Shown piece after piece: positions 17,824 to 39,878 of a DNA stretch of 48,338 bases; within the stretch, counting starts at the first letter, position 1; the number at the start of each line of letters is the position of its first letter. Source of the stretch: a virus; IMG/VR virus record IMGVR_UViG_3300020215_000063, positions 1 to 48,338 of that record. The stretch is one strand, 5' to 3'. Under the pieces are notes generated by a model, which was not told the origin of the DNA, ran no database searches, and saw only the letters and a list, made by a program, of their open reading frames with translations. The position numbers and the translations under genes were made by a program.

Positions 17824-17837
17824 GGGAGGAGGGGGAA

Positions 17838-18215
17838 TTACTTCTTGTTCGACTGTTCGGCCTTCTTCGCGGCCTCTTCTTTGGCCTTGTCTTCAGCCTC
17901 TTTCTTAGCCTTGGCGTCGGCTTCCTCCTTCTCCTTCTTCTCGGCGTCCAGCTCGGCCTTCGTGGGCTTCTTGAGTGCCTTCAGGGCGTCCTTCAGCTCG
18001 GCGGCCTTCTCCTTGTTTTTGTAGTCCTTCACGAACTCGGCGAACTCCTCCTCGTACTCGGGCTTGGCGAGCTGCGGGAGGTAGACACGGAGGTATTCCT
18101 GGTATGAGTCCGTACCCTTGAAGAACCGCAGGTAGCGGGTGATTTCGACGAGGTTCGAGGGCGTGGTCAGGATGCCGTTCTGGAAGTTCAGTTCGTGGTT
18201 AGGGCCGTCGGCCAT
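17838..18215 (-). CDS. Charged helical protein in the head cluster
   Basis: 125 residues. Residues 1-70 form a folded domain (LVEITRYLRFFKGTDSYQEYL); residues 75-125 are an Ala/Lys/Glu single helix or coiled coil (KKEAEDKAKEEAAKKAEQS). Possibly a head assembly or internal protein. Leader is C/T-rich (CATTCCCCCCTTTCCC). Confidence 0.6.
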   Translation of the reverse strand: MADGPNHELNFQNGILTTPSNLVEITRYLRFFKGTDSYQEYLRVYLPQLAKPEYEEEFAEFVKDYKNKEKAAELKDALKALKKPTKAELDAEKKEKEEADAKAKKEAEDKAKEEAAKKAEQSNKK

Positions 18216-18254
18216 GGGAAAGGGGGGAATGAATGGAGGGGAACCCTCTCGATC

Positions 18255-18284
18255 CTCCCCCCAACGCCGTGCGGCGTGGGGGAG
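18255..18284. terminator. Strong intercistronic hairpin
   Basis: Nested arms ACGCC/GGCGT (loop GTGC) and CTCCCCC/GGGGGAG with a 2-base bulge. It lies between two minus-strand head genes and has no T tract in that direction. It could be an RNA-processing or stability element that keeps capsid mRNA abundant. Confidence 0.5.
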
Positions 18285-18297
18285 AGTGTCGAAGGGG

Positions 18298-18543
18298 CTA
18301 GTTGCAGGTGCAAGCGCCGTTCGTCGGGGTGGTCGAGCAGTAGCCGATCACGCCCGTGTTCTTTTTGCAGAGGGCCTGGCCGTTCGCCGCTCCCGGTAGG
18401 CTCACGGTGAGCGTGGTGCCGGAGAGGGTGGCGGCGGTGATCGAGCCGGTGGAGACGACGTTCCCGGCGAAGTAGCCGACGACGCCGGTCGCGAGGGCGG
18501 CGATCACGGTCCCGACCGATAGTTCAGTGAACTGAGAGGGCAT
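18298..18543 (-). CDS. Small membrane-anchored protein beside the capsid gene
   Basis: 81 residues. Residues ~9-28 are hydrophobic (VGTVIAALATGVVGYFAG); the rest is a small Ser/Thr/Gly beta region ending with several Cys (LCKKNTGVIGYCSTTPTNGACTCN). The C-terminal style matches the fibre repeats elsewhere. A third example here of a fibre-like domain behind a membrane segment. Confidence 0.6.
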   Translation of the reverse strand: MPSQFTELSVGTVIAALATGVVGYFAGNVVSTGSITAATLSGTTLTVSLPGAANGQALCKKNTGVIGYCSTTPTNGACTCN

Positions 18544-18558
18544 CAGGAGGAGGGGGAA

Positions 18559-19572
18559 TCAGGCGAGGGTGGGCTTCGTGGTCGAGAGCGAGAAGATCGA
18601 GCCCTGGGGCTGGACGACGGCGAACGCGGCGAACTGGGTAACCAGGATCTTCGCCATGACGTTGTCGTGGTCCGTGAACTGCTGCTCGGGGGTCGGCTCT
18701 TCGGCCATCATGAGCTGCCAAGACTGCTTCGTGATGGACGAGTCCAACAGCGCCCAGCGGTAGATGTTGTCCGTGGTCGGGACGCCAAGGGCGTTGCGGT
18801 CGCCGTACTTGAGGGCGACGACCTTCATGGAACCCTTGCCGCCGTAGTAGTTGACGGCGTTGTTCGCGGTCTCCGGCGTGAGGCTGGAGCCGAACAGCTC
18901 GTGGCACTTGATGACCATGTCCATGTCGTTGGCGATGACGATGGTGTCGGGCTGCGGAGCGAAGTAGGTGCCGAAGTCGTCCGGCGTGTTGCGGACCATC
19001 TGGTTGATGGCGGTCGTCAGGTTAGCCTTGGAGAGCGCGGGGGCTCCGGACACGATGTTGCTGAAGGTCACGCCGCCGTAGCTGTGGTCCGTTGCGGCGA
19101 GGGCCTTGGAATCGCTCGTGGCGATGTTGTAGGCGGGCTTGCCGATGGGCGTGATCGTGGTCTGGTCGGCCTCGGAGAACGCCTGCATGGTCATTTCGAG
19201 GTCGAGGACGTTCACCAAGCGCTCCTTGAGGCGCTGGGCGGACTGGACCGTCTGTGCCTGGTTGTAGCGGTTGTTGAACTTGAACATCCGGCGGGTGATG
19301 TCGAGGCGATCACCGTACTGGATCTGCGTCTTGGAGAGTTCGTTACCCTTCTTCGGGTTCACGATCGGGTACTTCTCGTTCTCGTCGACGCGCTGCGCGA
19401 AGCCGGAGAGGCACACCGAGTTGAAGGTGACTTTCTCGCCGTCGCCGGGAGCCCAGGGCATCGAGGAGAAGAGGGAGCGGACGAGGTTGGGGCGGAGGTC
19501 CTTCAGTTGTTCGAGGACGGTGCGCTCCACGTTGTCCACGAATTCATTGAAGGCGACTGTGTTGTAAGGCAT
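18559..19572 (-). CDS. Major capsid protein
   Basis: 337 residues, a normal length for a HK97-fold capsid protein. Features of phage coat proteins: N-terminal FVDNVERTVLEQLKDLRP, a long helix region with RMFKFNNRYNQAQTV, TITPIGKPAYNIATSD, and VIANDMDMVIKCHELFG. Placed directly after the scaffold and decoration genes. Start follows a long C/T-rich leader (ACCCCCTCCTAGCCCCTCCCA) with no Shine-Dalgarno, although this should be the most highly made protein. Confidence 0.85.
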   Translation of the reverse strand: MPYNTVAFNEFVDNVERTVLEQLKDLRPNLVRSLFSSMPWAPGDGEKVTFNSVCLSGFAQRVDENEKYPIVNPKKGNELSKTQIQYGDRLDITRRMFKFNNRYNQAQTVQSAQRLKERLVNVLDLEMTMQAFSEADQTTITPIGKPAYNIATSDSKALAATDHSYGGVTFSNIVSGAPALSKANLTTAINQMVRNTPDDFGTYFAPQPDTIVIANDMDMVIKCHELFGSSLTPETANNAVNYYGGKGSMKVVALKYGDRNALGVPTTDNIYRWALLDSSITKQSWQLMMAEEPTPEQQFTDHDNVMAKILVTQFAAFAVVQPQGSIFSLSTTKPTLA

Positions 19573-19596
19573 TGGGAGGGGCTAGGAGGGGGTAAA

Positions 19597-19992
19597 TCAG
19601 GCTGCGATGGTGGTCTGGTAGGACTTCATGAACTGGACGTAGGCCTTGCCGGTGCTCACGCCGTCCCAACCAACGATCAAAAGGTCGTTGTTGGACTCCG
19701 TGAGGGTGGCGCCCGTGGAGGTTTCGAGGTCGGCTTCCTCGCCGATCTCGTCGGCGGCCATGGTGCCGGTGGTCACGTCAACAACCCACTCGTCGCCGGG
19801 GTGGTTGATGTCGATGGTGCAGTTGGTGGACGACGTGGCGGCTGCGACGGCAACGCCGACGATGGCCTTGGCGGTCGCGGCGGCGACCACTTCGCCGTTT
19901 TCGTCAAACTGTACGGCGGCACCGGCTGCGATGGTGCCCGCCGAGGGGTAGACCTTGAACTCGGACGTTCCGGTCCTGCGGATGAAACTCAT
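19597..19992 (-). CDS. Head decoration-like protein
   Basis: 131 residues, beta-rich and Ala/Thr/Val-heavy (GTIAAGAAVQFDENGEVVAA, KAIVGVAVAAATSS). The pattern of a repeated 'AAGAAVxFDxxGxVxxA' beta barrel is typical of DUF2190-like capsid decoration proteins, which trimerise on the capsid surface. Lies between scaffold and coat genes. Confidence 0.65.
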   Translation of the reverse strand: MSFIRRTGTSEFKVYPSAGTIAAGAAVQFDENGEVVAAATAKAIVGVAVAAATSSTNCTIDINHPGDEWVVDVTTGTMAADEIGEEADLETSTGATLTESNNDLLIVGWDGVSTGKAYVQFMKSYQTTIAA

Positions 19993-20010
19993 GATGGGAA
20001 GGGAAAGGGG

Positions 20011-20580
20011 CTAGATTTGCCCGCGTTCCTTCTTCAACTGCTGCTGCTTCAGCCAGGTCTCCTTCGAGTACCCCCATTCGGCAGCGGCCTTCGGGTCGAA
20101 GCCCTCTAGCTCGGTGCTTTCCAGGTTGCGGGTGCTCGCGGCGGGGCCGGAAGCGGTAGCCTGCTGACGCTCTAAACGTGCTTTATCGGGGTTGGCCTGG
20201 TAGCGGAGCTTGGCAGTCTCCAGGGCGTAGTCCCTGGGGATGCCGCGCGCGACGTCGGCCTTGTACTGCTCGTCGCCGTAGGACTCGATGTCGGCCTTGT
20301 TCTGGAATTCCCAGAGCTGGTCCTTCGTGACGTAGGGGGTGTCGTCCTTCGGCTCCGGAGTTTCCTCCGGCTCGTCGGAGATGCCCTTCTGGACTTTATC
20401 CAGGCGTCCCTTGTAGCGGTTCTTTTCACGTTCGGCGGCTGAGTGCTCCTCCTGGAGCTTCTGGAACAGCGGATGGCTTTTGACCATCTCATCCGTCAGA
20501 GCGGGTGGGTCCACTTTGGGGGTCTGCTCCGATCCGGAGCCAGTGGGGGCAGCCTGGGGCTGCGGGTTGGCGTCTGTCAT
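20011..20580 (-). CDS. Scaffolding protein
   Basis: 189 residues, highly charged and helical (LQEEHSAAEREKNRYKGRLD), low in aromatics, with a Pro-rich linker (SDEPEETPEPKDD). This is characteristic of phage head scaffolds, which guide coat assembly and leave before packaging. Order portal-scaffold-decoration-coat supports it. Confidence 0.75.
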   Translation of the reverse strand: MTDANPQPQAAPTGSGSEQTPKVDPPALTDEMVKSHPLFQKLQEEHSAAEREKNRYKGRLDKVQKGISDEPEETPEPKDDTPYVTKDQLWEFQNKADIESYGDEQYKADVARGIPRDYALETAKLRYQANPDKARLERQQATASGPAASTRNLESTELEGFDPKAAAEWGYSKETWLKQQQLKKERGQI

Positions 20581-20602
20581 GTGTAATGGGGAAAGTGTCT
20601 AG

Positions 20603-20655
20603 CTCTCGGCTAGGTTTCGGGGCGGGAGTGAAACGCCCCAAGACTCAGCCGAGAG
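20603..20655. other. Large nested RNA hairpin ahead of the head operon
   Basis: A 9-bp outer stem (CTCTCGGCT/AGCCGAGAG) and a 6-bp inner stem (GGGGCG/CGCCCC) are separated by symmetric 7-base internal loops. It lies in the only long gap of the packaging/head run, just before the scaffold gene. Being near-symmetric it would fold on either strand. Possible roles: RNase processing site, attenuator, or stability element. Confidence 0.6.
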
Positions 20656-20718
20656 AGAACAACAGTGTTGTGAAAGGGCGGGGGCTAGACGGAATCCTAT
20701 CCGTTCCGTTACCCCGGC

Positions 20719-20910
20719 TCATGCACGACCGCCTACGCTGCGGGCGGTGAATTCCTTGTAGCGGTGGATCACGGCTCGGACGAAGCTCTGGGAGTTGTAC
20801 TTCTCCCCCGTCATCCGCTCGATGGCCGCGACGGTACGCGGGACGGTCCGCTCCTGCTGAAAGACGTAGATGATGAGCTTCTGGTAGCGGGTGAACTCAG
20901 GCGGCATCAT
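20719..20910 (-). CDS. Small helical protein, possible HTH
   Basis: 63 residues: FTRYQKLIIYVFQQERTVPRTVAAIERMTGEKYNSQSFVRAVIHRYKEF. The spacing of two helices with 'VAAIERMTG..YNSQSFVRAVIHRY' is helix-turn-helix-like. Its ATG overlaps the upstream gene by 14 bp. No family assigned. It may regulate the following capsid genes or be a small portal accessory. Confidence 0.5.
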   Translation of the reverse strand: MMPPEFTRYQKLIIYVFQQERTVPRTVAAIERMTGEKYNSQSFVRAVIHRYKEFTARSVGGRA

Positions 20911-21208
20911 GCGACGGGAGGGAGGGCTTCATCACCTCGGGCAGGAAGTCGGCGGGCCGGGGCTTGCGCACGTCTTGTGCCGTCTGGTTCTGCTTGCCCA
21001 GCGTGTCTTTCATGATCTGGCTGCGGATGAACAGCGCCCCCATGCGGTCCTGGTCGCGGTTGCAGGTGTAGGACAGTTCCGTCAGCCGCCTATAAAGCGC
21101 CTCCCGCAGTGGCCTGGAGAGCGTTTTGAGGAGTTCCCTGTCCTCCGGGCTGGGGAATAGTTGCTCCTGCGTTTGCCGGAGCAGCCATCGGTTGAGGTAC
21201 TTGAGCAT
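20897..21208 (-). CDS. Helical protein overlapping the portal 3' end
   Basis: 103 residues if it starts within the portal gene: MLKYLNRWLLRQTQEQLFPSPEDRELLKTL reads as a normal amphipathic protein although 119 bp overlap the portal's low-complexity tail in another frame. No start signal is obvious there. An internal ATG (position 21043) would give 48 residues after the portal stop. Both options remain open. Confidence 0.5.
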   Translation of the reverse strand: MLKYLNRWLLRQTQEQLFPSPEDRELLKTLSRPLREALYRRLTELSYTCNRDQDRMGALFIRSQIMKDTLGKQNQTAQDVRKPRPADFLPEVMKPSLPSHDAA

Positions 21209-23246
21209 TGGGCTGGGCGGAAAGGGGCTGCTGGTTCAGTTCCATCTGCTGGAGCTTGCCGAGGAGGTCTTTGACCTGCGTAAGTTTCTCGGAACCCTCC
21301 TCGTCGGTCTTGAGGACGCGCTTCGGGTCGATGCTGGCGAACTCCAGCGTCTCGGCGGCGAGCTTGTCGAGGTCGAGGTTCTGGTAGCCGAGCACAGACG
21401 CGAGCTGGACGAGGAAGTCGGTCGCCGTTTTGAAGTTCTGGGCGTCCTGGTTCTTCATGTCCCCGAGCATGCGCTTGGAATCGACGATGCAATCCGGGAG
21501 CATCCCGCACTCGATGTACTCGGCGGGGTAAACGTACTCTTTCACGAGCGGGATGTAGCTCGTCTCGACCTTCATGTCCTTGTCGATGACGAGGGTGTTG
21601 TCGGTCTCGTTGTAGTTGAGCTTCCGCGTCTTGGTGGTCGTGAAGTCCTCCCGCATCTTCTCGCCCTTGAGCGGGATGTACTGCACCCGCTTTCTCTCAG
21701 GCTTCTTGTCCTTCTTCTTGCTGTTGAGGTTTTTGTAGTCGGAGAGGGGCTTCTTCCCCGCCTTGATGGCTTCCCGGGCCGTCTTCACGTCCTCCTCGGT
21801 CATCTCCTCGTAGTCCTGGACCGTGAGCACCGTGAGCGAGTTTGCGAGGAGCAGGGAGCCGACCGGCCTGAACACCTCGTTTTCGAGACGCTGGAGGCGT
21901 TGCTCGGCCCCGCGGTTGGCCAGGCGGATGCGCTGGGCGAACTCGAAGGCCGTCTTGCTGGTGTCCCCCACCATCTGCTGGTGGTTGACGCCCGTGGCCG
22001 GGATGGTTTGCTTGTCGAACATTTCCACCATCGCCTGGGTGTCGTCGATGCGCGCGATCCCCAGGGGCATGGGGGTGATCTCGCCGTCGATCAACTCGGC
22101 ACCGTACAGGCGGTTGGCGTCCACGTCGATGTAGCTGTCCGCGTTCGCCCCCTTGTAGTTCAGGGCAACCGTCTGGCTCCAGCGGTAGTTGTCCAGGTTC
22201 ATGTTAAAGATCGTCTGCAAGGCCGTGTCCTCGCCCTCGATCCTCTGGGGAAGGCCCATGCCGTAGGGGCAGTGCTGGCCGTCGTACCCCTTGTCGTAGG
22301 AGTCGAAGAACGTCCCCCAGCGCAGCGAACACAGGCCGGGGATGTTCAACCCCGTCGAGCGCAGGACCACGCCGTCCTTCACCTCCTCGTGAATCTTCAG
22401 GGAGGTGTCGAAGATCAGGATGCCCAGGTCGTCATCCGTGGGCGTCGAGGCGTGCCCGTCAGATTCCGTCCCGAAGGACTTGGCGTAGTAGCGGAGCACG
22501 TCGCGGATCTCGTCCTCATAGCGGTAGAGACAGACGTGGCTCCCCTTCGCGATCAGGTCGAGGTTGATGTAGGGGTTCGGTTCGCACCGCCCGAACTCCT
22601 GGGCGAACTGGTTCCAGGTGATGATGCGGCGGCGGAGGCACGAAGGGACCTGGGTCGAGTCGTCGATGTTCGGGTTCCGCCAGCAGTTCATCGGGTTCAC
22701 GGCGCGGACGCCGACCCTCGCGCGGCGGTAGTCGGGGGCCTGGACCGACTCGAAGTTCCCCTTGTCGTCTTTGATCCGGAGCGTGCGGCGGGGGTAGTCG
22801 ATGTACACCTCGAACACGCCGGAACCGAGGACGAAGTAGTCCCGGAAGAACATCTCCTGGTGGAGCTTGTACTGGCAGTCGGAGAGCACCTTCTTGATCA
22901 GGTGCTTCCAGATGATCGTCTTGATGTGGTCGGACGGGCCGAAGGGCTCGAAGCTGAAATCGGGTTCGCCTTCGGTCATCTGCTCGATGCCCTTGTCGAT
23001 GATCGTGCGAGTCCCGCCGAAAAAGATCCTGGACACCTCGTCCGTGGGCTTCATGGTCTGGACGACGTTGTAGATCTTCATGCCCCGGATCGCCTTCGCG
23101 TCCCATCCGGTGTTCCTGCGGTAGTCCCGCATGTACCGCGAATCCTCCTGGTCCCAGTCGCGGAGCTTCCGGTGCTCGTCACTCATCTCTCCGTTTTGAA
23201 GACGCTCCTTGGGGTCGATCTCGTGGTAAAACGGGAACAGGGGCAA
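21090..23246 (-). CDS. Portal protein
   Basis: 718 residues. Large mixed alpha/beta protein with portal-like elements: FFGGTRTIIDKGIEQMTEG, a central ALNYKGANADSYIDVDANRL, and a long C-terminal helical region ending in a Pro/Gln/Ala tail. It follows the large terminase and precedes scaffold, as expected for the dodecameric DNA channel. The start given is TTG; an in-frame ATG at 23186 (MSDEHRKLRD) with GGAG nearby is an alternative. Confidence 0.8.
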   Translation of the reverse strand: MPLFPFYHEIDPKERLQNGEMSDEHRKLRDWDQEDSRYMRDYRRNTGWDAKAIRGMKIYNVVQTMKPTDEVSRIFFGGTRTIIDKGIEQMTEGEPDFSFEPFGPSDHIKTIIWKHLIKKVLSDCQYKLHQEMFFRDYFVLGSGVFEVYIDYPRRTLRIKDDKGNFESVQAPDYRRARVGVRAVNPMNCWRNPNIDDSTQVPSCLRRRIITWNQFAQEFGRCEPNPYINLDLIAKGSHVCLYRYEDEIRDVLRYYAKSFGTESDGHASTPTDDDLGILIFDTSLKIHEEVKDGVVLRSTGLNIPGLCSLRWGTFFDSYDKGYDGQHCPYGMGLPQRIEGEDTALQTIFNMNLDNYRWSQTVALNYKGANADSYIDVDANRLYGAELIDGEITPMPLGIARIDDTQAMVEMFDKQTIPATGVNHQQMVGDTSKTAFEFAQRIRLANRGAEQRLQRLENEVFRPVGSLLLANSLTVLTVQDYEEMTEEDVKTAREAIKAGKKPLSDYKNLNSKKKDKKPERKRVQYIPLKGEKMREDFTTTKTRKLNYNETDNTLVIDKDMKVETSYIPLVKEYVYPAEYIECGMLPDCIVDSKRMLGDMKNQDAQNFKTATDFLVQLASVLGYQNLDLDKLAAETLEFASIDPKRVLKTDEEGSEKLTQVKDLLGKLQQMELNQQPLSAQPNAQVPQPMAAPANAGATIPQPGGQGTPQNALQATAGGAL

Positions 23247-23422: not shown

Positions 23423-24677
23423 GCACACCAGCGTAGATCGAGCGGCGGGGTTTTGTCTGCTTCTTCTTCTCGACGAGCTGGGCGGCCATGCCCGCGCACT
23501 GGAACGCATCCGCCCCGTGGCTCCACGGCGTGTCGTGCTCTGGCTCGGGACTGGTCTTCTGGGTCTCGGGATCGAACTTGTAGGCGTACCGCTGAAGACA
23601 GACAATCCCATCGGCGCAGTTCTCGCGGTCCCACCACGAGTTGCCCATGATCGACCGGGCTGCGTCGATGGCGAGCGCCTTCCGTGGGGTCCGCTGGATC
23701 GGCTCCTGGACGCCGGAGAACACGGAGCGCATCTGATTCAGGATGCTCTTCTCCTGGCCCAATAGTTCATTGGCCGCGTCGTGGGGGAGGTAGTGGTTCC
23801 CGTAGGCGTAAGGAAGCTCTTTGAGGTACTTGATGTAGTGACTGAAGTGCTCCCCGGAGTTCTCGTAGTAGCGGATGAAGCGGAACTGCCCGCCGATGGT
23901 CTGCATGAACCATACGGCGGTCTTGTCGTTCCTCCCAAGGTCCCAGTACGTGTTCACGGGCTTCAGGGGGTCGTAACGTACTTCGGTGATCCGCTGCTCC
24001 TCGACGGCCTTCCCGATCTCCTTGGCGAACACGGCACCTGCGACAGCAGCTCGGCACTCCCCGAGCCAGACGTTGCGGTACTCTTCGGGGTCGGTGGCCT
24101 TGCAGTGCTCCATCTCTTGGCGGAGCACGTCCGGGAAGTAGGGGTTCTGGTCGTAGTTCACCTTCCGGACGATGGCGTAGGGCGGCGGATTCGCCACAAG
24201 CCTCTGGTACGTCGGGGAGTCGGGCAGATCGGGGTTGAAGGTGGCGATGATCTCGGAGTCCTTGGCGCGGATCGTGGGGAAGATGACCTTCCACGAGGCG
24301 TCCGAGACGGTTTCCGCCTCCTCCACCCAGAACTTCTTCACGTCGTACATGGATTTGATGTTCGCGATGTTGTGGTGCAAGCCGACGAACGCGAAGCTGG
24401 TCCCGTTCTTCCCCCGGATCTCGGTCTTGAGGACCTGGTAGAAGTCGGACAGGCCGTGGACGGCGATCAGCTCGGCGAGCATCTCGTGGACGGAGTCCTT
24501 GATGGAATTCTGGTACTCGCGGGCGCAGACGATCTTCATCGGCTCGCTGGCACCCACGGCCAGGAGGTAGCGGCCCACGGATTCGGACTTCGCCCCGCCT
24601 CGTCCGCCGTGGAAGACCTTCAGGCGGCAGGGCGTGAAGAGTTCCCGGAAGGCGTAGGGGATTTCAATCGGGATCAT
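23415..24677 (-). CDS. terL: Large terminase subunit
   Basis: 420 residues, normal for PBSX/terminase_3-like motors. Walker A at residues 24-31 (GGRGGAKS), Walker B in KKFWVEEAETVS, and the RNase H-like nuclease with its Asp in YWDLGRND and near the end in HGADAFQCAG. It cuts and pumps phage DNA into the head. Start MIPIEIPYAF overlaps the upstream zinc-ribbon stop (ATGA); a longer frame of 28 extra residues is only that gene's shadow. Confidence 0.92.
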   Translation of the reverse strand: MIPIEIPYAFRELFTPCRLKVFHGGRGGAKSESVGRYLLAVGASEPMKIVCAREYQNSIKDSVHEMLAELIAVHGLSDFYQVLKTEIRGKNGTSFAFVGLHHNIANIKSMYDVKKFWVEEAETVSDASWKVIFPTIRAKDSEIIATFNPDLPDSPTYQRLVANPPPYAIVRKVNYDQNPYFPDVLRQEMEHCKATDPEEYRNVWLGECRAAVAGAVFAKEIGKAVEEQRITEVRYDPLKPVNTYWDLGRNDKTAVWFMQTIGGQFRFIRYYENSGEHFSHYIKYLKELPYAYGNHYLPHDAANELLGQEKSILNQMRSVFSGVQEPIQRTPRKALAIDAARSIMGNSWWDRENCADGIVCLQRYAYKFDPETQKTSPEPEHDTPWSHGADAFQCAGMAAQLVEKKKQTKPRRSIYAGVHG

Positions 24678-24844
24678 CGGGAGTGGGAACCGCCCGCCCA
24701 GCCTTCTCCGACGAACATCACCGGGGGGACGCTGATCTCTCGCTCCATCAGCTTTCCGCACAGGCAGTAGGCCTTTCCGGGCTTCCCCATCGGGTAGGTC
24801 CGTTCGGCCGTGTTCCCGCAGCGGCAGCGGTAGGCGTATCTCAT
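24674..24844 (-). CDS. Mini zinc-ribbon protein
   Basis: 56 residues starting MRYAYRCRCGNTAERTYPMG, with two CxC pairs (RCRCG and YCLCGK). The layout is that of FmdB-type small zinc ribbons. Coupled to terL (ATGA) and to the preceding gene (4-bp overlap). C/T-rich sequence precedes it (ACCCCCTTCCA). Confidence 0.6.
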   Translation of the reverse strand: MRYAYRCRCGNTAERTYPMGKPGKAYCLCGKLMEREISVPPVMFVGEGWAGGSHSR

Positions 24845-25155
24845 TGGAAGGGGGTAAATTCTTTCACGGGGTCGTTCTTGATCCTGATGCCGAAGCCCGT
24901 GTCCGTCTGGGAGAGACCGTCGAGCATCTTGGCCATGTCCGATTCCTGGGCGGTTCGCTCCGGGTAGCCCGCGTAGTGCTTCACGTACCGCAGGGAGTTG
25001 CGGAACCGCTCGTTCAGGGCTCCGAGAGTAGCGGGGGTTATAGGTCCCTCGATCTTGTCGGCGAAGCGGATGCCGTTCCCCCGAAGGGTGTAGTAGGTCA
25101 CGCCGTCTTTCTGGAACTTGTAGTAGTCGGTGACTTTCAGGACGCGGCGCTGCAT
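24841..25155 (-). CDS. Hypothetical protein upstream of terL
   Basis: 104 residues: MQRRVLKVTDYYKFQKDGVTYYTL, then NGIRFADKIEGPITPATLG and a helical, charged end. No family recognised. Position between small and large terminase suggests packaging or a DNA-binding accessory. Confidence 0.6.
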   Translation of the reverse strand: MQRRVLKVTDYYKFQKDGVTYYTLRGNGIRFADKIEGPITPATLGALNERFRNSLRYVKHYAGYPERTAQESDMAKMLDGLSQTDTGFGIRIKNDPVKEFTPFQ

Positions 25156-28636: not shown

Positions 28637-28774
28637 TCAAGTATTGCGAAGCGTGTCCCAAGCGAAGAAGCCGAGGACGATCCAGAAGAAGATGGCCATG
28701 CTCAGGCTCGGCCGCATGTAGTTGGCGAACCATACTGCCAGAGTGATGATGAACAGGCGGTCGTTGCGGGTCAT
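28637..28774 (-). CDS. Small membrane protein
   Basis: 45 residues with two short hydrophobic stretches (LFIITLAVWF and MAIFFWIVLGFFAW) joined by NYMRPSL. ATGA overlap with the upstream gene. Probable two-pass membrane peptide. Confidence 0.55.
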   Translation of the reverse strand: MTRNDRLFIITLAVWFANYMRPSLSMAIFFWIVLGFFAWDTLRNT

Positions 28775-28893
28775 TTCTCAGAGGGAACAGGAACCTGCTT
28801 CGCCCAGGCCACGAGGGCGTCAGCCGCCCGTCGCACCCACGGCTCATCGGGTGATGGCACGTAGTCTTCCGAGATAGGGCAGGAGGGAGTCAT
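28771..28893 (-). CDS. Small acidic/Pro protein
   Basis: 40 residues: MTPSCPISEDYVPSPDEPWVRRAADALVAWAKQ. The leader is CTAGCTCCCCCCTCTCCCCGCA immediately before ATG, one of the clearest C/T-rich leaders. No family. Confidence 0.5.
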   Translation of the reverse strand: MTPSCPISEDYVPSPDEPWVRRAADALVAWAKQVPVPSEK

Positions 28894-28911
28894 TGCGGGG
28901 AGAGGGGGGAG

Positions 28912-29100
28912 CTAGCGGGGTTCGTCTGTACCGAGGCGGTCTGCCTGTTCAATCATCTTGGATGCGATCTTCAGGCATGCGGCGGCGTAGCCGTGCTTCC
29001 AGTCCTCGGACTTCCCTTCGGGGATGTCCAGCCCGGTCTCCGCGACGTACTGGGCGAAGCCTTTGAGGACGTGCCGAATGAAGGTGTCGGAGGGGTTCAT
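28912..29100 (-). CDS. Hypothetical protein downstream of repressor
   Basis: 62 residues, helical (FIRHVLKGFAQYVAETGLDIPEGKSEDW). Starts inside the stop of the XRE gene (TGATG), so the two are co-translated. Could be a repressor partner or antirepressor by position. Confidence 0.55.
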   Translation of the reverse strand: MNPSDTFIRHVLKGFAQYVAETGLDIPEGKSEDWKHGYAAACLKIASKMIEQADRLGTDEPR

Positions 29101-29426: not shown

Positions 29427-29684
29427 TCAGTCCCTATCGAGCCGCTCGGTCAGCCTGTGGATCTCCCGGCAGAGCTGGAGCTGGATTGCGTCTCCGTCCA
29501 TCAGGTGGGCCTTTCCTGCCGCTTCGTACACGTCGGGGTCGAGGAAGGGCTTCAACTCGGGGAGCCACTCCACCTGCACCTGGATCGGCCCCTTGATCTC
29601 CGGGATCAGCGCACGGCCTGTGGCGTCCTGGGGGACGTGCAGGTCGGAGGTCAGCTCGGAAACGACGTCGACCTCTTTGGTCAT
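29427..29684 (-). CDS. Hypothetical protein
   Basis: 85 residues: MTKEVDVVSELTSDLHVPQDATG, then PIQVQVEWLPELKPFLDPDVYEAAGKAHLMDGDAI, ending HRLTERLDRD. Alpha/beta; no family. Coupled to the upstream membrane peptide (ATGA). Confidence 0.55.
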   Translation of the reverse strand: MTKEVDVVSELTSDLHVPQDATGRALIPEIKGPIQVQVEWLPELKPFLDPDVYEAAGKAHLMDGDAIQLQLCREIHRLTERLDRD

Positions 29685-29794
29685 TTGCCGACAGCCATCA
29701 GAACGCAGCCAACCACGGCGACAAGCATCCCGATCAGGAAGTAGGGAGAGTGGAACGACAGTGCCGCTCCGGTGATGACAACGCCAAGGCCCAT
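29681..29794 (-). CDS. 37-residue membrane peptide after tRNA-His
   Basis: MGLGVVITGAALSFHSPYFLIGMLVAVVGCVLMAVGK: two hydrophobic stretches. A longer open frame begins inside the tRNA and is not real. Leader CACCATCTTCCCCCTCAACCCT follows the tRNA end directly, so both are probably on one transcript. Confidence 0.55.
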   Translation of the reverse strand: MGLGVVITGAALSFHSPYFLIGMLVAVVGCVLMAVGK

Positions 29795-29811
29795 AGGGTT
29801 GAGGGGGAAGA

Positions 29812-29885
29812 TGGTGTGGGCGACGAGAATCGAACTCGCGTCACCGGTTCCACATACCGGGGTCCTGCCACTGAACGACACCCAC
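29812..29885 (-). tRNA. tRNA-His (GTG), CCA encoded
   Basis: Complete cloverleaf: acceptor GTGGGTG/CGCCCAC, D stem GTTC/GGAC, anticodon stem CCGGT/ACCGG with loop ATGTGGA (GTG), T loop TTCGATT. The 3' CCA is encoded. A G precedes the first base, as needed for the extra G of tRNA-His, but base 73 is A rather than the usual C. It lies at the head of the minus-strand run, between the two divergent gene blocks. Confidence 0.9.
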
Positions 29886-31076: not shown

Positions 31077-31119
31077 GGAGACGCGAAACGAAGTGAGCGT
31101 CACACCGGAGACGCGAAAC
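31077..31119 (+). repeat. Direct repeat in leader of the 31.1-kb gene
   Basis: The 13-mer GGAGACGCGAAAC occurs at 31077-31089 and 31107-31119 (30-bp period). Between them GACGC/GCGTC can form a hairpin. An extended -10-like TGCTACCCT (31068-31076) lies just before, with only a weak -35. Confidence 0.5.
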
Positions 31120-31142
31120 CACCATTCCCCCCTACCAACTCC

Positions 31143-31340
31143 ATGTACTACTGCCTTGCTCTCCTGGTCTGTCTCTCTCTGATGACACAGAAACCAGCGT
31201 CCTTCTGGGATTGGGTGTACCGGGGAGTCTCTGCTCAGATCGTTCCGGGCCATCCGTATCGAGCTGCTCTCGTGGTCTTCGCTTCTTTTGCTGTCCCCTC
31301 CCTGCTCGTGTTCTCTCTGCTGGCACTTGGGTATTGGTAG
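31143..31340 (+). CDS. Two-pass membrane protein
   Basis: 65 residues with hydrophobic N and C termini (YYCLALLVCLSL and AALVVFASFAVPSLLVFSLLALGYW) around SFWDWVYRGVSAQIVPGHP. Leader CACCATTCCCCCCTACCAACTCC, no Shine-Dalgarno. Function unknown. Confidence 0.6.
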   Translation: MYYCLALLVCLSLMTQKPASFWDWVYRGVSAQIVPGHPYRAALVVFASFAVPSLLVFSLLALGYW

Positions 31341-34733: not shown

Positions 34734-35098
34734 ACGGGGTTATTGGAAATCCAGTTGTCGGCGAAGGCCAGGAACGCCTCGTCCTCGGGCCGCAGCTCGT
34801 ACCGGCCTTCGGAGACGGCCTGCATGACGTGCTCGCGGGCCAGGCGGAGGAAGAGGTGTCGCATCTCGGGGGAGTCCTTCTGGGGGCCTTTGTGGATGTC
34901 ACGCTGGAGCGGGCAGAAGTTGAAGACGGAGGAGAACATCTTCCGCTGCACGTCGTTCGGCCGGTACCCGTTCACGTATCCCCGGCCGAGGATGTGGTGG
35001 GCGTCGACGAACTGCCAGTGCAGGGTGATCCAGCACTTCGGCCGCTCTCCGTAGACGGCGTGGACATCCCGAGGGCGGAAGGCGGCGGGGTCACTCAT
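34730..35098 (-). CDS. HNH-like nuclease
   Basis: 122 residues. CWITLHWQFVDAHHILGRGYVNGYR, then FSSVFNFCPLQRDIHKG: a His-His pair, an Asn in the middle and a final His in HNH order. Start M (SDPAAF) chosen since it overlaps the upstream stop. Possibly a recombination endonuclease of the NinG/Rap sort, given the RusA-like neighbour. Confidence 0.65.
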   Translation of the reverse strand: MSDPAAFRPRDVHAVYGERPKCWITLHWQFVDAHHILGRGYVNGYRPNDVQRKMFSSVFNFCPLQRDIHKGPQKDSPEMRHLFLRLAREHVMQAVSEGRYELRPEDEAFLAFADNWISNNPV

Positions 35099-35405
35099 CG
35101 TATTCGGGGGCACAGCCGATTTGGATGGTCTCTTCTATTTCGTAATCACGGTAGAACGTCAGCCAACATCTCTTTCGCAATGCCTTGCTGCCTGATCCTG
35201 TCACTCTGAATGGGTTGCTTTCTGAGTACGTCATCCATCGATCCTGCGCATTCACTGGTTCCAGCCCCTCCCGGACGTAGGTGTAAAGGGCGGATGATTT
35301 CTCCCATACCCACGCACCGCCAAGAAACAAGCCAACGATGGCAAGGATGGTAATCGCCCAGAAAATTATGTGCTCGTACCATTTAAAATCGTCGTCTGTA
35401 CTCAT
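35091..35405 (-). CDS. Single-pass membrane protein, lower GC
   Basis: 104 residues: MSTDDDFKWYEHIIFWAITILAIVGLFLGGAWVW as anchor, then an outer domain with two Cys (GSGSKALRKRCWLTFYRDYE, IQIGCAPEYDE). Base composition is lower in GC than its neighbours, hinting at recent acquisition. Leader AACCCCTTCC. Confidence 0.6.
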   Translation of the reverse strand: MSTDDDFKWYEHIIFWAITILAIVGLFLGGAWVWEKSSALYTYVREGLEPVNAQDRWMTYSESNPFRVTGSGSKALRKRCWLTFYRDYEIEETIQIGCAPEYDE

Positions 35406-35584
35406 CGGAGAAATTGGAAGGGGTTAAGCAGCTTCCCGCACGCTCCCTGTACCTCGTCCGTCGAGTGCAGGAGGTGGAAGCCGAAGCGGGCGTGGACGGT
35501 GCAGTCGAACCAACGGCCGTAGAGGGTCAGCAGGAAGATCGCGACGAGAAGGATGCCGATGGCGGAGAGCTGCCAGTGCTTCAC
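35402..35584 (-). CDS. Small membrane protein
   Basis: 60 residues: MKHWQLSAIGILLVAIFLLTLYGRWFDC, a membrane anchor, then a short domain with two Cys. Coupled both sides (4-bp overlaps). Confidence 0.6.
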   Translation of the reverse strand: MKHWQLSAIGILLVAIFLLTLYGRWFDCTVHARFGFHLLHSTDEVQGACGKLLNPFQFLR

Positions 35585-35951: not shown

Positions 35952-35976
35952 GTTCACGTCACTTCCCCCCGCGCAC

Positions 35977-36273
35977 ATGACGCACACTCCCGGACCCTGG
36001 ACCCTCGGCCCGACGATCAGAGACGAGAATGGCTTCGTTGGCAGGAACGTCTACGGCCAACACAACGGACAAGACCGATTCGTGTGCAACGTTTCGACAC
36101 ATGAGCACAAGGGAGAAGAGGATCAGGGCGTCGCCAACGCCCGCCTGATGGCCGCCGCTCCGACGATGCTCGCCGCTCTCAAGTTCTCCCTGGAGTGCCC
36201 GGACGAAGAAGAGGCCATGCGTGTCGTCCAGGCCGCCATAGCCCAAGCCGAAGGTTCCCCCCTCGCCGCATGA
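35977..36273 (+). CDS. Phage early protein of MxHTPGPW type
   Basis: 98 residues beginning MTHTPGPWTLGPTIRDENGF, a start shared by many small phage proteins of unknown role, with a helical end (ARLMAAAPTMLAALKFSLE). Start chosen for that motif and for the C/T leader CACTTCCCCCCGCGCAC. First gene of the rightward run controlled by the RHH switch. Confidence 0.7.
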   Translation: MTHTPGPWTLGPTIRDENGFVGRNVYGQHNGQDRFVCNVSTHEHKGEEDQGVANARLMAAAPTMLAALKFSLECPDEEEAMRVVQAAIAQAEGSPLAA

Positions 36274-36350
36274 TGGTCCTCAAGATCCCCTCCTTCGTTG
36301 CCGCCCTCCTGATCGGGTTCCTGCTCTATCAGGTGGCCCAGATCGCGTAG
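36270..36350 (+). CDS. 26-residue membrane peptide
   Basis: MMVLKIPSFVAALLIGFLLYQVAQIA; ATG overlaps the previous TGA. Single membrane helix. Confidence 0.5.
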   Translation: MMVLKIPSFVAALLIGFLLYQVAQIA

Positions 36351-36395
36351 AGAGTTCGCAGACCTTTGTCAGCATCGGCCCGAAGGATCGATCCC

Positions 36396-36532
36396 GGCGG
36401 TGTGGCGGAATAGGTAGACGCTAGTCTCCAAAGGCCACGGTTACGAGGCCTGGGCCTGAAAAACCCCGGCTATGCGGGGTGACAACTTGGGATCAAGGAG
36501 TCGCTATCCTCCCACAACTCCCCGCCACCGTC
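36396..36532 (+). pseudogene. tRNA-Leu-like 5' half with distant acceptor partner
   Basis: GGCGGTG-TG-GCGGAATAGGTAGACGC (36396-36421) matches the 5' half of class II tRNA-Leu, with the D stem GCG/CGC and the AGG and TAGACGC D-arm features. No anticodon stem, anticodon or T arm follows. CACCGTC at 36526-36532 could pair with the acceptor (one G-U). The insert contains CCCC-GGCTATG-GGGG and GGCC/GGCC hairpins. Could be a decayed or interrupted tRNA, or a tRNA-mimic. Confidence 0.35.
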
Positions 36533-36569
36533 CGGATCGGTCCTTTGGAATCACTCCCTTTGGCGATTC

Positions 36570-36589
36570 AAGCCCCTTCCTGGGGGCTT
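36570..36589. terminator. Hairpin before the 36.6-kb promoter
   Basis: AAGCCCC/GGGGCTT, 7 bp with a 6-base loop, no T tract. It overlaps the -35 of the next promoter and may insulate it. Confidence 0.5.
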
Positions 36590-36616
36590 GCGCATTAGTT
36601 GACATTCTGCTACAAT
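36588..36616 (+). promoter_or_regulatory. Promoter with extended -10
   Basis: -35 TTGCGC, 17-bp spacer, -10 TACAAT preceded by TGC (extended -10). GTTGAC, the RHH half-site, sits in the spacer (36598-36603). Confidence 0.65.
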
Positions 36617-36650
36617 TGTTACAGTTTCATATCCAATACCCACCTCCAAT

Positions 36651-36896
36651 ATGTTCCGCTCCGTTTCCCTCTCCCCGTCCCGCGAAACGTTCCGTTTCCC
36701 GGTCCAGTCTTTCGCTTTCATGCTTCTATCGCTGGTCCTTCTCTCGTACACCGTCCGCTTGGCCTACCTCGGCTACGAGGACTACCGAGCCCAGAAGCTC
36801 CGCAACTGCATCGCCGCTCACTCTATGAACCCCATGAGCAACGGTATGACGAGAGACGAGATCCGTTTCGCCTGCGTCAAAGGCCTCGGCTTCTAA
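36651..36896 (+). CDS. Small membrane protein
   Basis: 81 residues: basic start (FRSVSLSPSRETFRFP), one membrane segment (FAFMLLSLVLLSYTVRLAYLG), then a polar domain ending RFACVKGLGF. Leader ends CCCACCTCCAAT. Confidence 0.6.
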   Translation: MFRSVSLSPSRETFRFPVQSFAFMLLSLVLLSYTVRLAYLGYEDYRAQKLRNCIAAHSMNPMSNGMTRDEIRFACVKGLGF

Positions 36897-36915
36897 TCCC
36901 TTCCGCCCCCCAACA

Positions 36916-37548
36916 ATGAAAACCAATACGAAAGCCAAGCTGTTCGACCTTACCTGGAAGTCCGGCGTTGCCGTCGGCCTCTCCCTGGCGACTCTTCACC
37001 TCTCCCTGGCTCCTCTGGCCGAGCGGGTCGTCCGGCTCGACCGGGCACTGTTCCCGACCGTCCAGGCCCAAGGAGCCCCCCTGTCTGCTGTCCTGTTCCC
37101 CTGGACGCTCCCAAAACGAACGGTGAAGCTCCCGAAGCCTGTTCCGAAGCCGACCGGCAAGGGCTGCACCCGCGACTACAAAGCCATTCACGCCCTGGAC
37201 TGCTCGGAACTCGTCGCCCTGCTCAAGCAAGCCGGGTTTGAGGGTCCGGCCCTTCGCACCGCCTACGCCGTCGCCCGTGCCGAGTCCTCCGGACGTCCGA
37301 AAGCCTTCAACGGCAACACCCGCACCGGGGATCAGTCCTACGGGGTGTTCCAGGTGAACATGCTCAACCGGCTCGGTCCCGCCCGCCGAAAGCAGTTCGG
37401 CCTGAAGTCGAACGACGAACTGTATGATCCCCTCGTGAACGCCAAAGCAGCCTTTCAGATCTCCTCCGGTGGCAAGAACTGGCGTCCGTGGGGAGCACAC
37501 TCGAATGGCTCGTACCGGAAGTTCCTGTCTGAATTTGACACCCTCTGA
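36916..37548 (+). CDS. Lysozyme-like / transglycosylase enzyme
   Basis: 210 residues. N-terminal anchor or signal (SGVAVGLSLATLHLSLAPLA), a Pro/Lys linker (residues 65-82), and a lysozyme-fold domain: AYAVARAESSGRPKAF with likely catalytic E123, then TGDQSYGVFQVNM and WRPWGAHSNGSYR. The domain cuts glycan strands. Its place in the early/rightward block and its N-terminal membrane segment argue against a simple endolysin; a signal-anchor endolysin or secreted wall enzyme are options. Confidence 0.8.
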   Translation: MKTNTKAKLFDLTWKSGVAVGLSLATLHLSLAPLAERVVRLDRALFPTVQAQGAPLSAVLFPWTLPKRTVKLPKPVPKPTGKGCTRDYKAIHALDCSELVALLKQAGFEGPALRTAYAVARAESSGRPKAFNGNTRTGDQSYGVFQVNMLNRLGPARRKQFGLKSNDELYDPLVNAKAAFQISSGGKNWRPWGAHSNGSYRKFLSEFDTL

Positions 37549-37563
37549 CTTCTCTGCTTTAAT
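37535..37563 (+). promoter_or_regulatory. Promoter of secreted-protein gene
   Basis: -35 TTGACA, 17-bp spacer, -10 TTTAAT, inside the end of the lysozyme gene. The best match to the sigma70 consensus in the window. Confidence 0.75.
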
Positions 37564-37599
37564 CCCCTACTTCGCGTTTTACCCCTCCCCCTCTCTCCC

Positions 37600-37896
37600 A
37601 TGAAGCGTCTTCTCGCTTCCCTCCTCTCCGCCGCCACGCTCGCGGCTCCTCTCGCTGCCAGTGCAGCCCCCGCCCGCCTGGGCAACACTCTGGTCCCCGC
37701 CCGCTTCTGCGAGGGCGTCCGGTTCGATGACCAGAAGTACGGCCCCTTCATCGAGGCCTACGCCCTGGACCTGAAGGTCGCGGCCCTGATGAACGATCCC
37801 GTCATCCGCGAGGCTGTCCGCCGCGCGAACGCCGAGAAGTGGTCCGGCCAGGTCCGTGCTGGTCAGAAGGCCAAGTGCGGCAAAGCATCGTTCTGA
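37600..37896 (+). CDS. Small secreted protein
   Basis: 98 residues. Signal peptide MKRLLASLLSAATLAAPLAASAAPA with ASA cleavage site, then a ~75-residue domain with two Cys (FCEGVRFDDQKYGPF, KAKCGKASF). Own promoter and own terminator, so it is an independently expressed unit, in style like a prophage moron gene. Leader TTTTACCCCTCCCCCTCTCTCCC. Function unknown. Confidence 0.7.
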   Translation: MKRLLASLLSAATLAAPLAASAAPARLGNTLVPARFCEGVRFDDQKYGPFIEAYALDLKVAALMNDPVIREAVRRANAEKWSGQVRAGQKAKCGKASF

Positions 37897-37913
37897 GCAA
37901 GCCAAGGAAGGCC

Positions 37914-37950
37914 AAGGCCCCGACCCCCAAGAGAGTCGCGGGCCTTTTTT
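37914..37950 (+). terminator. Intrinsic terminator
   Basis: AAGGCCC-CGAC paired with GTCG-c-GGGCCTT, followed by six T. Strong stem, 11 bp with one bulge. Confidence 0.85.
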
Positions 37951-37968
37951 CGTGGGGGCTTGCGTTGC

Positions 37969-38415
37969 TCAGAACGTTTCTTGTCGATGGAACTCGCCTC
38001 GAAGCAACCTTGCTGCCGCCTCGTATGCGGCCTTAGCGTCTTCGCGCCTTCCAAAAATCCCGAGGTACTTGGACTTCCCTCCGTGTCGGATCACAGCTCG
38101 CCACTTCCGATTCGCCGACTCCCATTTTGTACCTGTCCATTTCCCCTTGCGTCTGTTCCAGGCATTTTCCGAGGGCGTACAAAGCCGCAAGTTCCTTGAG
38201 CGGTTGTCCTTTTTGTCGCCGTTTCTGTGGTCCACGTAGAACGGCTCGCAGGGCTCCATTATCATGCGATGGAGATAAACCGTTTTCCCATCCGGCCCCC
38301 GTCTGCATACATATCCCGTCACTTTGTTCTCGGCCCATCCAAACTCCTTCGCCCACCAGTAGTCCTCGTCATCGACGATTGTCGTTCCACCGTTGAGCAA
38401 GTAGATGGTTGCCAT
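37969..38415 (-). CDS. HNH endonuclease with AP2-like domain, copy 2
   Basis: 148 residues from MATIYLLNGG. HNH block: YLHRMIMEPCEPFYVDHRNGDKKDNRSRNLRLCT, and AP2-like SANRKWRAVIRHGGKSKYLGIF with REDAKAAYEAAARLL. Shares the order and motif spacing of the 32.1-kb copy. An upstream start (20 residues longer) is open but overlaps an opposing promoter. Probably a mobile homing gene inserted between terminator and promoter. Confidence 0.85.
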   Translation of the reverse strand: MATIYLLNGGTTIVDDEDYWWAKEFGWAENKVTGYVCRRGPDGKTVYLHRMIMEPCEPFYVDHRNGDKKDNRSRNLRLCTPSENAWNRRKGKWTGTKWESANRKWRAVIRHGGKSKYLGIFGRREDAKAAYEAAARLLRGEFHRQETF

Positions 38416-38432
38416 CGCCCGCATGATGCCCC

Positions 38433-38461
38433 TTGCGTACCGTGTTCGCAACCTGTACTTT
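38433..38461 (+). promoter_or_regulatory. Promoter, leaderless gene
   Basis: -35 TTGCGT, 17-bp spacer, -10 TACTTT. The -10 ends 7 nt before the ATG of the next gene. Confidence 0.65.
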
Positions 38462-38468
38462 TCTCGCC

Positions 38469-38663
38469 ATGTCACACACCCCGATTCCCCAGTGGGCCAA
38501 AGCCCGCAAGATGAGCCGTAGGAAAGCTGAGTACATAGCCAAAAACTACCCGGAATACGTGGTCCTCAAACCGAAAAAGATAGTCCGCACCGTCTTCGTG
38601 AAATGTCTAGACGACTCAGCCCCGATTGAGTTGCGCGGAAAGGACGCAGAGAGTAGTCTGTAG
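38469..38663 (+). CDS. Small basic protein
   Basis: 64 residues: MSHTPIPQWAKARKMSRRKAEYIAKNYPEYVV, then beta strands (KKIVRTVFVKCLDDSAPIELRG). Start fixed by the promoter 7 nt upstream. Possibly nucleic-acid binding by charge. Confidence 0.6.
   Translation: MSHTPIPQWAKARKMSRRKAEYIAKNYPEYVVLKPKKIVRTVFVKCLDDSAPIELRGKDAESSL
38631..38659 (+). promoter_or_regulatory. Promoter of 38.7-kb operon
   Basis: -35 TTGCGC, 17-bp spacer, -10 TAGTCT, inside the end of the previous gene. Leads into the leader ACATTCCCCCATCCAC. Confidence 0.6.
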
Positions 38664-38679
38664 ACATTCCCCCATCCAC

Positions 38680-38802
38680 ATGGACCGCGAAGCACAACAA
38701 CTCGCAGAACTCCGGGAGTTCATGGAAGAGAACCCGGACGAGATGGCGACTCGCGAAGAGATGTACGACGAGCAGGACGCGAATTACGATAGCCAGCTTT
38801 GA
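38680..38802 (+). CDS. Small acidic peptide
   Basis: 40 residues, strongly acidic and helical: MDREAQQLAELREFMEENPD, ending DEQDANYDSQL. Such acidic phage peptides often inhibit host nucleic-acid enzymes, but nothing specific is visible. Confidence 0.55.
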   Translation: MDREAQQLAELREFMEENPDEMATREEMYDEQDANYDSQL

Positions 38803-38822
38803 TATTCCTTCCCCCTCTACCC

Positions 38823-39083
38823 GTGAAATCCTACTCCGCTTGGGTCACAATCACCGGAAAGGTCTTCGTGGATGAAGACGAAATGATGGAAGTCCTGCAA
38901 GAGAAGTACCCTGATCTCTGCGTGTGGAACGAGGAAGAGGCCGAGTGGGTTAACGACTGCACGGCGGAGCAGGAGCGGGAGACGTTTGAAGAGATCGCCC
39001 GTCGCAAGCTCAGTGAGCACTTCCCCACTGACGAACCTCTTAAGTTCAACGAAGCTATCATCGACCTTTCCACCTTCCAGTGA
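38823..39083 (+). CDS. Hypothetical acidic protein
   Basis: 86 residues, GTG start after TATTCCTTCCCCCTCTACCC. Beta-start (YSAWVTITGKVFVDEDEMMEV), then acidic helices. Resembles small phage proteins that are otherwise unnamed. Confidence 0.6.
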   Translation: MKSYSAWVTITGKVFVDEDEMMEVLQEKYPDLCVWNEEEAEWVNDCTAEQERETFEEIARRKLSEHFPTDEPLKFNEAIIDLSTFQ

Positions 39084-39241
39084 TGTTCCTCGCCTTCACC
39101 CCTCCCGAGCCCTCCGGCCAGTACCAAGACGCCGAAGCACGGCTCGCCTGCCTCGCTGCCGAGAAGCTCCTGGCCCTCCACTTCGATGGGTGCCCTTGTG
39201 ACCGCTGCGAGAAGTGCCGTCTCGTTCTCTCCTTCCAATGA
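39083..39241 (+). CDS. Small Cys-rich protein
   Basis: 52 residues: helical start, then FDGCPCDRCEKCRLV, four Cys in ten residues, likely one zinc site. ATG overlaps the previous stop (TGATG). Confidence 0.6.
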   Translation: MFLAFTPPEPSGQYQDAEARLACLAAEKLLALHFDGCPCDRCEKCRLVLSFQ

Positions 39242-39303
39242 TCCCCACCTTCTACTTCTCCCTTGTGGCCTTTGGTGCCCTTCTAGCCTCTTTCCTCCTC
39301 TAA
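39238..39303 (+). CDS. 21-residue membrane peptide
   Basis: MIPTFYFSLVAFGALLASFLL, one hydrophobic helix; ATGA overlap with the previous gene. Among the shortest plausible genes here. Confidence 0.4.
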   Translation: MIPTFYFSLVAFGALLASFLL

Positions 39304-39307
39304 ACCC

Positions 39308-39859
39308 ATGGACAAAGCTCCCAAGCTCAACACCGTGATCCAGACCAACATCCCCCTGCGTCTGCGGATCAAAAAGTACGGCGGGGAGTTCGACGACAAG
39401 TTCAACCCCGGCAAGAAGACCTACTTCTACGTCTTCACCGACGAGAAAGGCAACGAGTACACCCACTCTGCTTCTGCCATCCAGCACGAAGCCCTCTCGA
39501 TCTTCCAAGAGGGGGATCTGGTGCAGGTCGTCCGCACTGAGAAGATGAGCGACGGCAAGCGGATGACGTACTACAACTGGACGCCTCCGGAGGGTGCCGA
39601 AGCCCGTGCCGCTGCGACCCCGCAATTCCAGAGCAACACCGCCGTCCAGCGACAGGAGCGGCAGCAGGAGGACCACCAGAAGGCCGCACGGATCAAGGAT
39701 GCCTGCATCTCTCTGCAAGGGCTGGTCCAGGCCTACATCATCCAGGGCAGAGAAGACCCCCTCGAAGCTGCCATCCTCATGCGTGAACAGATCATCAAGG
39801 AAGCTACCAAGATCGTTTCCCCCAAGCCTGGACCTGAACCCGCCGATTCCATTTTCTGA
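39308..39859 (+). CDS. OB-fold / SSB-like protein
   Basis: 183 residues. Residues 10-95 are beta-rich with FVTD-like strands (TYFYVFTDEKGNEYTHSAS, FQEGDLVQVVRTEKMSDGKRMTYYNW). A helical, Gln-rich linker follows, and the C terminus ends PEPADSIF, reminiscent of the acidic SSB tip that recruits replication proteins. A single-strand DNA-binding role is a good guess. No close family named. Confidence 0.55.
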   Translation: MDKAPKLNTVIQTNIPLRLRIKKYGGEFDDKFNPGKKTYFYVFTDEKGNEYTHSASAIQHEALSIFQEGDLVQVVRTEKMSDGKRMTYYNWTPPEGAEARAAATPQFQSNTAVQRQERQQEDHQKAARIKDACISLQGLVQAYIIQGREDPLEAAILMREQIIKEATKIVSPKPGPEPADSIF

Positions 39860-39878
39860 TTCCCTTTCCCCACTTTTC

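Follow-up and report, generated by a model that had tools for sequence, protein, structure and literature searches.

How ribosomes find the start codons of a phage whose genes carry hardly any Shine-Dalgarno (SD) sites is the question raised by the virus record IMGVR_UViG_3300020215_000063, which lies whole in the stretch analysed here (the window; 48,338 bases, GC 63%). A preliminary description of positions 17.8-39.9 kb had cited 18 start codons preceded by C/T-rich leaders of the type CCCCCTCC. All 18 precede an ATG or GTG with an open frame and are C/T-rich in the direction of the gene. Fifteen coincide with called gene starts in a set of 78 genes obtained with a codon-usage caller that is blind to leaders, and the sites at 28894, 31120 and 35406 open reading frames (ORFs) of 40, 65 and 104 amino acids (aa) that were not called. 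The C/T-richness was thus borne out, but the exact motif has to be replaced by the positional consensus UU(U/C)CCC(C), located at about -15 to -8 of the start. As judged from the comparisons below, this UUUCCCC-type leader is real, a conserved start signal of non-SD type that has a set position in one phage clade, and it probably serves as a ribosome-binding element that replaces the SD site in these podovirus-like phages.

Pyrimidine-rich leaders were seen in gene-sense orientation on both strands of the window; among the cited ones, those of minus-strand genes lie mostly below 36 kb, and the plus-strand ones at 31.1 and 36-40 kb. In the 25 nucleotides (nt) directly before ATG genes below 41 kb the pyrimidine fraction was 0.667, compared with 0.479 before in-frame internal ATGs (p 9e-16) and 0.514 before out-of-frame ones (p 1e-9), and the longest pyrimidine run was 8.0 in leaders versus 3.9 and 4.7, respectively. 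Hence, the bias is absent before ATGs of the same strand composition, and the original observation stands. SD cores occurred in 8% of these leaders and in 21-23% of the internal-ATG controls. The leaders had also been said to carry the anti-SD sequence itself; CCUCC is present in 18% of them (5% of controls) and, being a minor form, is incidental, while the statement that the leaders cannot pair with the anti-SD is a fair one. Between positions 1001 and 41411 the C/T motif was found in 39 of 58 genes (about two thirds) and an SD core in four. The rule therefore holds over the 17.8-39.9 kb first described, reaches further, from 1.0 to 41.4 kb, and fails from 41.4 to 46.2 kb. The leaders were also less structured and more accessible than the contexts of internal ATGs. 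The leaders thus have the pyrimidine-rich, weakly structured upstream sequence typical of S1-type sites, and they do not resemble SD leaders, SD cores being at or below control both in the window below 41 kb and in relatives. It could be argued that such leaders are an artefact, because an SD site on the opposite strand would appear as C/T-rich sequence and because the AT skew is negative across much of the window. Strand misreading is ruled out by extraction of the sense strand for genes of both strands, and base composition alone by three controls: the internal ATGs, a test on all ATGs and within-leader shuffles. There is practically no chance that either produced the leaders.

The element has a defined shape and register. 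Relatives were gathered by capsid similarity and by tail-protein similarity; in the window and in the relatives G001, G002, G003 and W01 (MW202647), U peaks at -15 to -13, C peaks at -12 to -8 and G is rare, a profile that differs from that of internal ATGs with p values of 1e-6 to 1e-12. Motif finding with no motif imposed returned TTCCCCCC in the window and TTTCCACC, TTTCCCCC and TTCTTTCC, at comparable positions, in three relatives. The pooled register score was 3.32, above every within-leader shuffle (2.40 +- 0.08), and when each phage was scored with a model built from the others, the register exceeded the shuffles by z values of 3.5-6.8. The signal is lost when bases are permuted within each leader and so contains more than composition. 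Leave-one-out classification of starts reached an area under the curve (AUC) of 0.80-0.88, and a model trained on the relatives recognized the window starts with an AUC of 0.81. When all ATGs of seven phages were considered, independently of gene calls, 47-59% of those with TTCC at -15/-14 opened an ORF of 60 aa or more, against a base of 23%, and GGAG gave no peak at the SD position. The same test on six SD-using phages gave 57-77% ORFs for GGAG at -13 to -9 and no effect of TTCC. Low-GC relatives often carry tracts of the UCUUUC type. Uncalled gaps of 1-5 kb in W01, G001 and G002 hold CAT...GGGGAA strings that resemble reverse-complemented C/T leaders, and the motif could serve to locate genes that the caller missed there.

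The element is present in six relatives (G001, G002, G003, G006, G007 and W01) whose GC content is 38-51%, versus 63% in the window, and whose capsid identity to the window falls as low as 28%; G007, recruited by tail-protein similarity alone, still carries it. The 8-kb contig G005 showed the same tendency, which was not significant (p 0.075). SD sites are at or below background genome-wide in the relatives, and virion and other genes carry the element alike; a stronger pyrimidine content of virion genes was considered and discarded as inconsistent across phages. Among L001-L018, L040-L049 (minus plasmid L046) and L061-L090, whose sole link to the window is terminase or an FCCH-like tail domain, 47 contigs carried enough genes for the test; the element was absent from all of these and most were clearly SD-type. 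The relatives-trained model gave AUC values of 0.2-0.6 on the other records tested, with the exception of cyanophage Syn5 (0.80), whose C/A-rich, G-poor leaders are depleted in SD and lack the register (z 0.4). Among L098-L100, compared alongside Syn5 (L094), Pf-WMP4 and MaMV-DC are SD users, and neither signal is seen in P-SSP7.

The distance between motif and start would also suit the -10 box of leaderless genes, in which case the motif would be a promoter element at about -10 of leaderless transcripts, with no role in translation. Yet the motif is commonest at starts that overlap the upstream ORF (63%) and common at operon-internal starts with gaps of 1-60 nt (43-52%), whereas the first genes of a run show no enrichment (36%, n=11). 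Because the motif persists at starts overlapping the upstream gene, these frequencies favour an element that belongs to the polycistronic mRNA rather than a leaderless promoter, which is very improbable. Positioned, conserved in diverged phages, present at coding overlaps and accompanied by SD depletion, the leaders are well supported as replacements of SD sites, as had been proposed.

The exception to the rule is a block at 41412..46241, in which 7 of 11 genes have an SD core and one of 11 the C/T motif, versus 4 of 58 (p 8e-5) and 39 of 58 (p 5e-4) in the 1.0-41.4 kb region. The position weight matrix (PWM) score of the C/T element is -4.8 in the block and +2.6 elsewhere. The block contains a tyrosine integrase gene (42223-43515, plus strand), which adjoins a tRNA-Phe gene, and three minus-strand genes: a helix-turn-helix (HTH) gene, excisionase-like by its placement (43481-43654), a gene for a TIGR02996 protein (43723-44364), whose domain, rpt_mate_G_obs in NCBIfam, was first described in Gemmata, and a primase-like gene (45239-46009). 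Positions 41995-46241 join the tRNA-Phe gene and these four in one block. No integrase, TIGR02996 protein or tRNA was found in the relatives examined (G007 was left out of the integrase search). The block could represent a recent acquisition or DNA derived from the host, possibly a lysogeny or mobilisable module. The window integrase had no match among viral contigs or plasmids, two scans of the genome contig collection yielded no prophage of the clade, and the 3' end of tRNA-Phe is present in one copy only in the contig, with no duplicated attachment site. A Gemmataceae host is suspected, on the basis of the one TIGR02996 domain, itself located in the SD block, and the earlier description of a planctomycete phage would have the same single basis here. 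The presence of the block suggests that the host reads SD sites.

The element would act on mRNA, gene by gene and overlapping starts included, and its reader would most probably be the 30S initiation machinery of the host, acting through S1 or another site at the mRNA exit and aided by low structure. Reading by the host 30S subunit is favoured because virion and non-virion genes carry the element and the clade shares no phage-encoded reader. Moreover, since all gene classes carry the element and SD is at or below background in the relatives, the genes first expressed after infection must suit an unmodified host. The proteins common to the window, W01, G001, G002 and G003 are all virion or packaging proteins, with no shared reader among them; no S1, CSD or S21 domain was found in the phage proteins searched, and the noncoding gaps gave no shared candidate for a small RNA carrying GGGGAA. 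S1 is a possible reader, S1 and low structure being the least demanding components. Several facts weigh against this proposal. All functional statements on the leaders are drawn from sequence. About one third of the window genes lack the motif by a simple pattern, and since the SD-type block coexists with the C/T leaders, one and the same cell apparently reads both. The known behaviour of S1 does not account for the fixed U-then-C register; in E. coli, S1 touches U-rich mRNA sequence some 11 nt 5' of the SD (PMC5397173). It is conceivable, as a tentative extension, that a dedicated ribosome contact, an rRNA segment or a protein but not the anti-SD, reads UUUCCCC sequence-specifically in its fixed register; within one cell, lytic genes would then be initiated in one mode and SD-type lysogeny or host genes in another.

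Other readers have to be weighed against the host 30S machinery. A phage RNA-binding protein or small RNA could read the leaders and switch ribosomes to phage messages, the lysogeny genes keeping SD sites for the unmodified host ribosome. The fixed register suggests a specific reader, and the division between the SD-type block with integrase, HTH and TIGR02996 genes and the remainder of the genome (the p value of 8e-5 and the PWM scores given above) would suit it. However, the element is genome-wide in the relatives and so includes genes expressed before any phage product is made, and the clade offers neither a shared non-virion protein nor one of the domains sought. The GGGGAA occurrences in the gaps define no shared RNA, several resembling complements of the leaders of uncalled genes. 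Such a phage-encoded reader is decidedly unlikely. Pairing with rRNA would instead place UUCCCC opposite GGGGAA of 16S rRNA, either in the h45 loop (1514-1519, beside the anti-SD) or at 359-364. TTCCCC is the top enriched 6-mer of the pooled leaders (22 occurrences versus 4.8 expected from composition shuffles) and exactly complements both segments in E. coli 16S rRNA, taken as a stand-in for that of the host, and the 7-mers ATTCCCC and TTCCCCA match the 359 site. In-vitro selection with E. coli ribosomes has also yielded C-rich sites with 16S complementarity (PMC3310771). On the other side, the flanks suit the 359 site in part but do not lengthen the h45 pairing (G precedes TTCCCC in 0 of 27 cases and T follows in 1 of 27), and the UCUUUC-type tracts of the low-GC relatives have weaker 16S complementarity. 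Besides, the 359 site lies away from the mRNA exit, and h45 is folded, with A1518 and A1519 dimethylated. Pairing of UUCCCC with GGGGAA is therefore faintly supported, and improbable as the explanation of the element.

A further alternative, which overlaps reading by the host 30S subunit as far as the reader is concerned, is that UUUCCCC-type leaders are a trait of the host lineage, used for its own genes, and that its phages follow. All fully read members of the clade share the trait whatever their GC content, as adaptation to one host group predicts, and biases of a related kind can occur in phages whose hosts use few SD sites, as the G-poor, C-rich leaders of Syn5 illustrate (AUC 0.80). If the host belongs to the Gemmataceae, however, such a practice is hard to reconcile with a Gemmataceae plasmid in which 57% of genes have SD and 4% the motif, or with a Singulisphaera plasmid with 61% and 4%; Planctomycetia have a normal anti-SD and 48% SD genes (PMC10783764). 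The SD block in the window likewise argues for an SD-reading host, which, given these three SD frequencies, would fit a planctomycete. A host-wide use of such leaders is accordingly doubtful.

The closest precedents are C-rich sites selected in vitro and the diffuse C-rich leaders of one cyanophage. Barendt (2012) reported that C-rich non-SD sites just upstream of AUG drive fast initiation on E. coli ribosomes, proposed 16S complementarity and named C-rich leaders of phages KS14, Nigel and Syn5 (PMC3310771). Those sites came from selection in a purified system, were inefficient in E. coli cells, and pure poly-C failed; unlike in the present clade, no positioned genome-wide element is described in the parts consulted (PMC3310771). 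In the same test as applied here, KS14 and Nigel are SD users overall and Syn5 is diffusely C-rich without register. The clade leaders share with S1-dependent pyrimidine- or U-rich leaders a pyrimidine-rich, unstructured, G-poor and SD-independent character. They differ in lying nearly at the SD position, with a C-rich 3' half and a fixed U-then-C order, whereas the E. coli S1 contacts sit further upstream and have no such register described (PMC5397173). In Bacteroidota non-SD initiation (PMC9976891) and in crAss001 the SD is unused or depleted, as in this clade, but the leaders of Bacteroidota are A/U-rich and crAss001 lacks the C/T element (AUC 0.52). Terminase relatives such as Pseudomonas phage H66 and the Manatee Spring podoviruses are of similar phage type and have their signal at nearly the same position; it is an SD of the opposite base class, GGAG at -13 to -9 marking starts and TTCC not. 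The literature search, with most subscription journals outside its reach, turned up no clade-wide element with a fixed register. How ribosomes choose starts without SD sites is a long-standing question, and the clade provides a setting in nature in which C-rich sites, until now obtained only by in-vitro selection, can be tested. In phages of this type, gene callers tuned to SD sites may place starts wrongly. Should lysogeny and lytic genes indeed differ in mode, translational control of the phage life cycle would be indicated.

Individual leaders illustrate these features. On the minus strand, the major capsid gene (18559-19572) is preceded at 19573..19597 by TTTACCCCCTCCTAGCCCCTCCCA-ATG. The gene at 19597-19992, scaffold/decoration-like by weak PHROG matches to scaffolding and decoration proteins, has CCCCTTTCCCTTCCCATC-ATG at 19993..20017, and the scaffold-like gene at 20011-20580 has CACTTTCCCCATTACAC-ATG at 20581..20605. 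Most orthologues of the latter in the relatives are also preceded by similar elements, and short inverted repeats of the CTAGC/GCTAG type stand directly before the C/T element in the window (20581-20612) and in some of these orthologues. Also on this strand are AATTCCCCCTCCTCCC-ATG at 17824..17848 (gene 17494-17823), CATTCCCCCCTTTCCC-ATG at 18216..18240 (gene 17838-18215), GATTCCCCCTCCTCCTG-ATG at 18544..18568 (gene 18298-18543) and CTTCCCCCTCAACCCT-ATG at 29795..29819 (gene 29681-29794). A tRNA-His gene (29812-29885) lies among the called genes of the same strand; the relatives scanned yielded no tRNA. The leader at 24845..24869 (gene 24674-24844) is within the upstream ORF 24841-25155, and those at 28894..28918 and 35406..35430 precede the uncalled 40-aa and 104-aa ORFs (28771-28893 and 35091-35405). 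On the plus strand, ATTCCCCCCTACCAACTCC-ATG at 31118..31142 opens the uncalled 65-aa ORF 31143-31340, CACTTCCCCCCGCGCAC-ATG at 35952..35976 the gene 35977-36273, and ATACCCACCTCCAAT-ATG, a weak C/T leader at 36626..36650, the gene 36651-36896. The SLT-lysozyme gene (36916-37548) follows CCCTTCCGCCCCCCAACA-ATG at 36891..36915, and the gene 37600-37896 follows TTACCCCTCCCCCTCTCTCCC-ATG at 37575..37599. Further along come CATTCCCCCATCCAC-ATG at 38655..38679 (gene 38680-38802), CCTTCCCCCTCTACCC-GTG at 38798..38822 (gene 38823-39083, with a GTG start), CTCTTTCCTCCTCTAAACCC-ATG at 39283..39307 (gene 39308-39859, with homologues in W01 and G001) and CCCTTTCCCCACTTTTC-ATG at 39854..39878 (gene 39879-40061).

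Besides the SLT lysozyme, the window encodes a large terminase, a portal-like protein, two M23 peptidase domains, one of them within an 896-aa protein, and the capsid protein, whose gene was identified by tblastn with the MW202647 capsid and viral contigs 65-71% identical. The minus-strand ORFs at the right (47634-48338) and left (1-783) ends fuse in frame into a 495-aa ATPase-like protein with a GNRGTGKS motif in one half and, in Pfam, only a sub-threshold ATPase match. Since the ORFs of the contig ends join in this manner, the genome is probably circular despite its classification as linear. The window terminase is 39% identical to those of W01, G001 and G005. These three are 67-71% identical to one another, while the W01 capsid is only 26-27% identical to the other two, a pattern that is indicative of terminase exchange inside the clade. 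An RtcB RNA ligase is encoded at G003:C1:34189-35250 and is absent from the other seven records searched; members of this family elsewhere rejoin cleaved RNAs.

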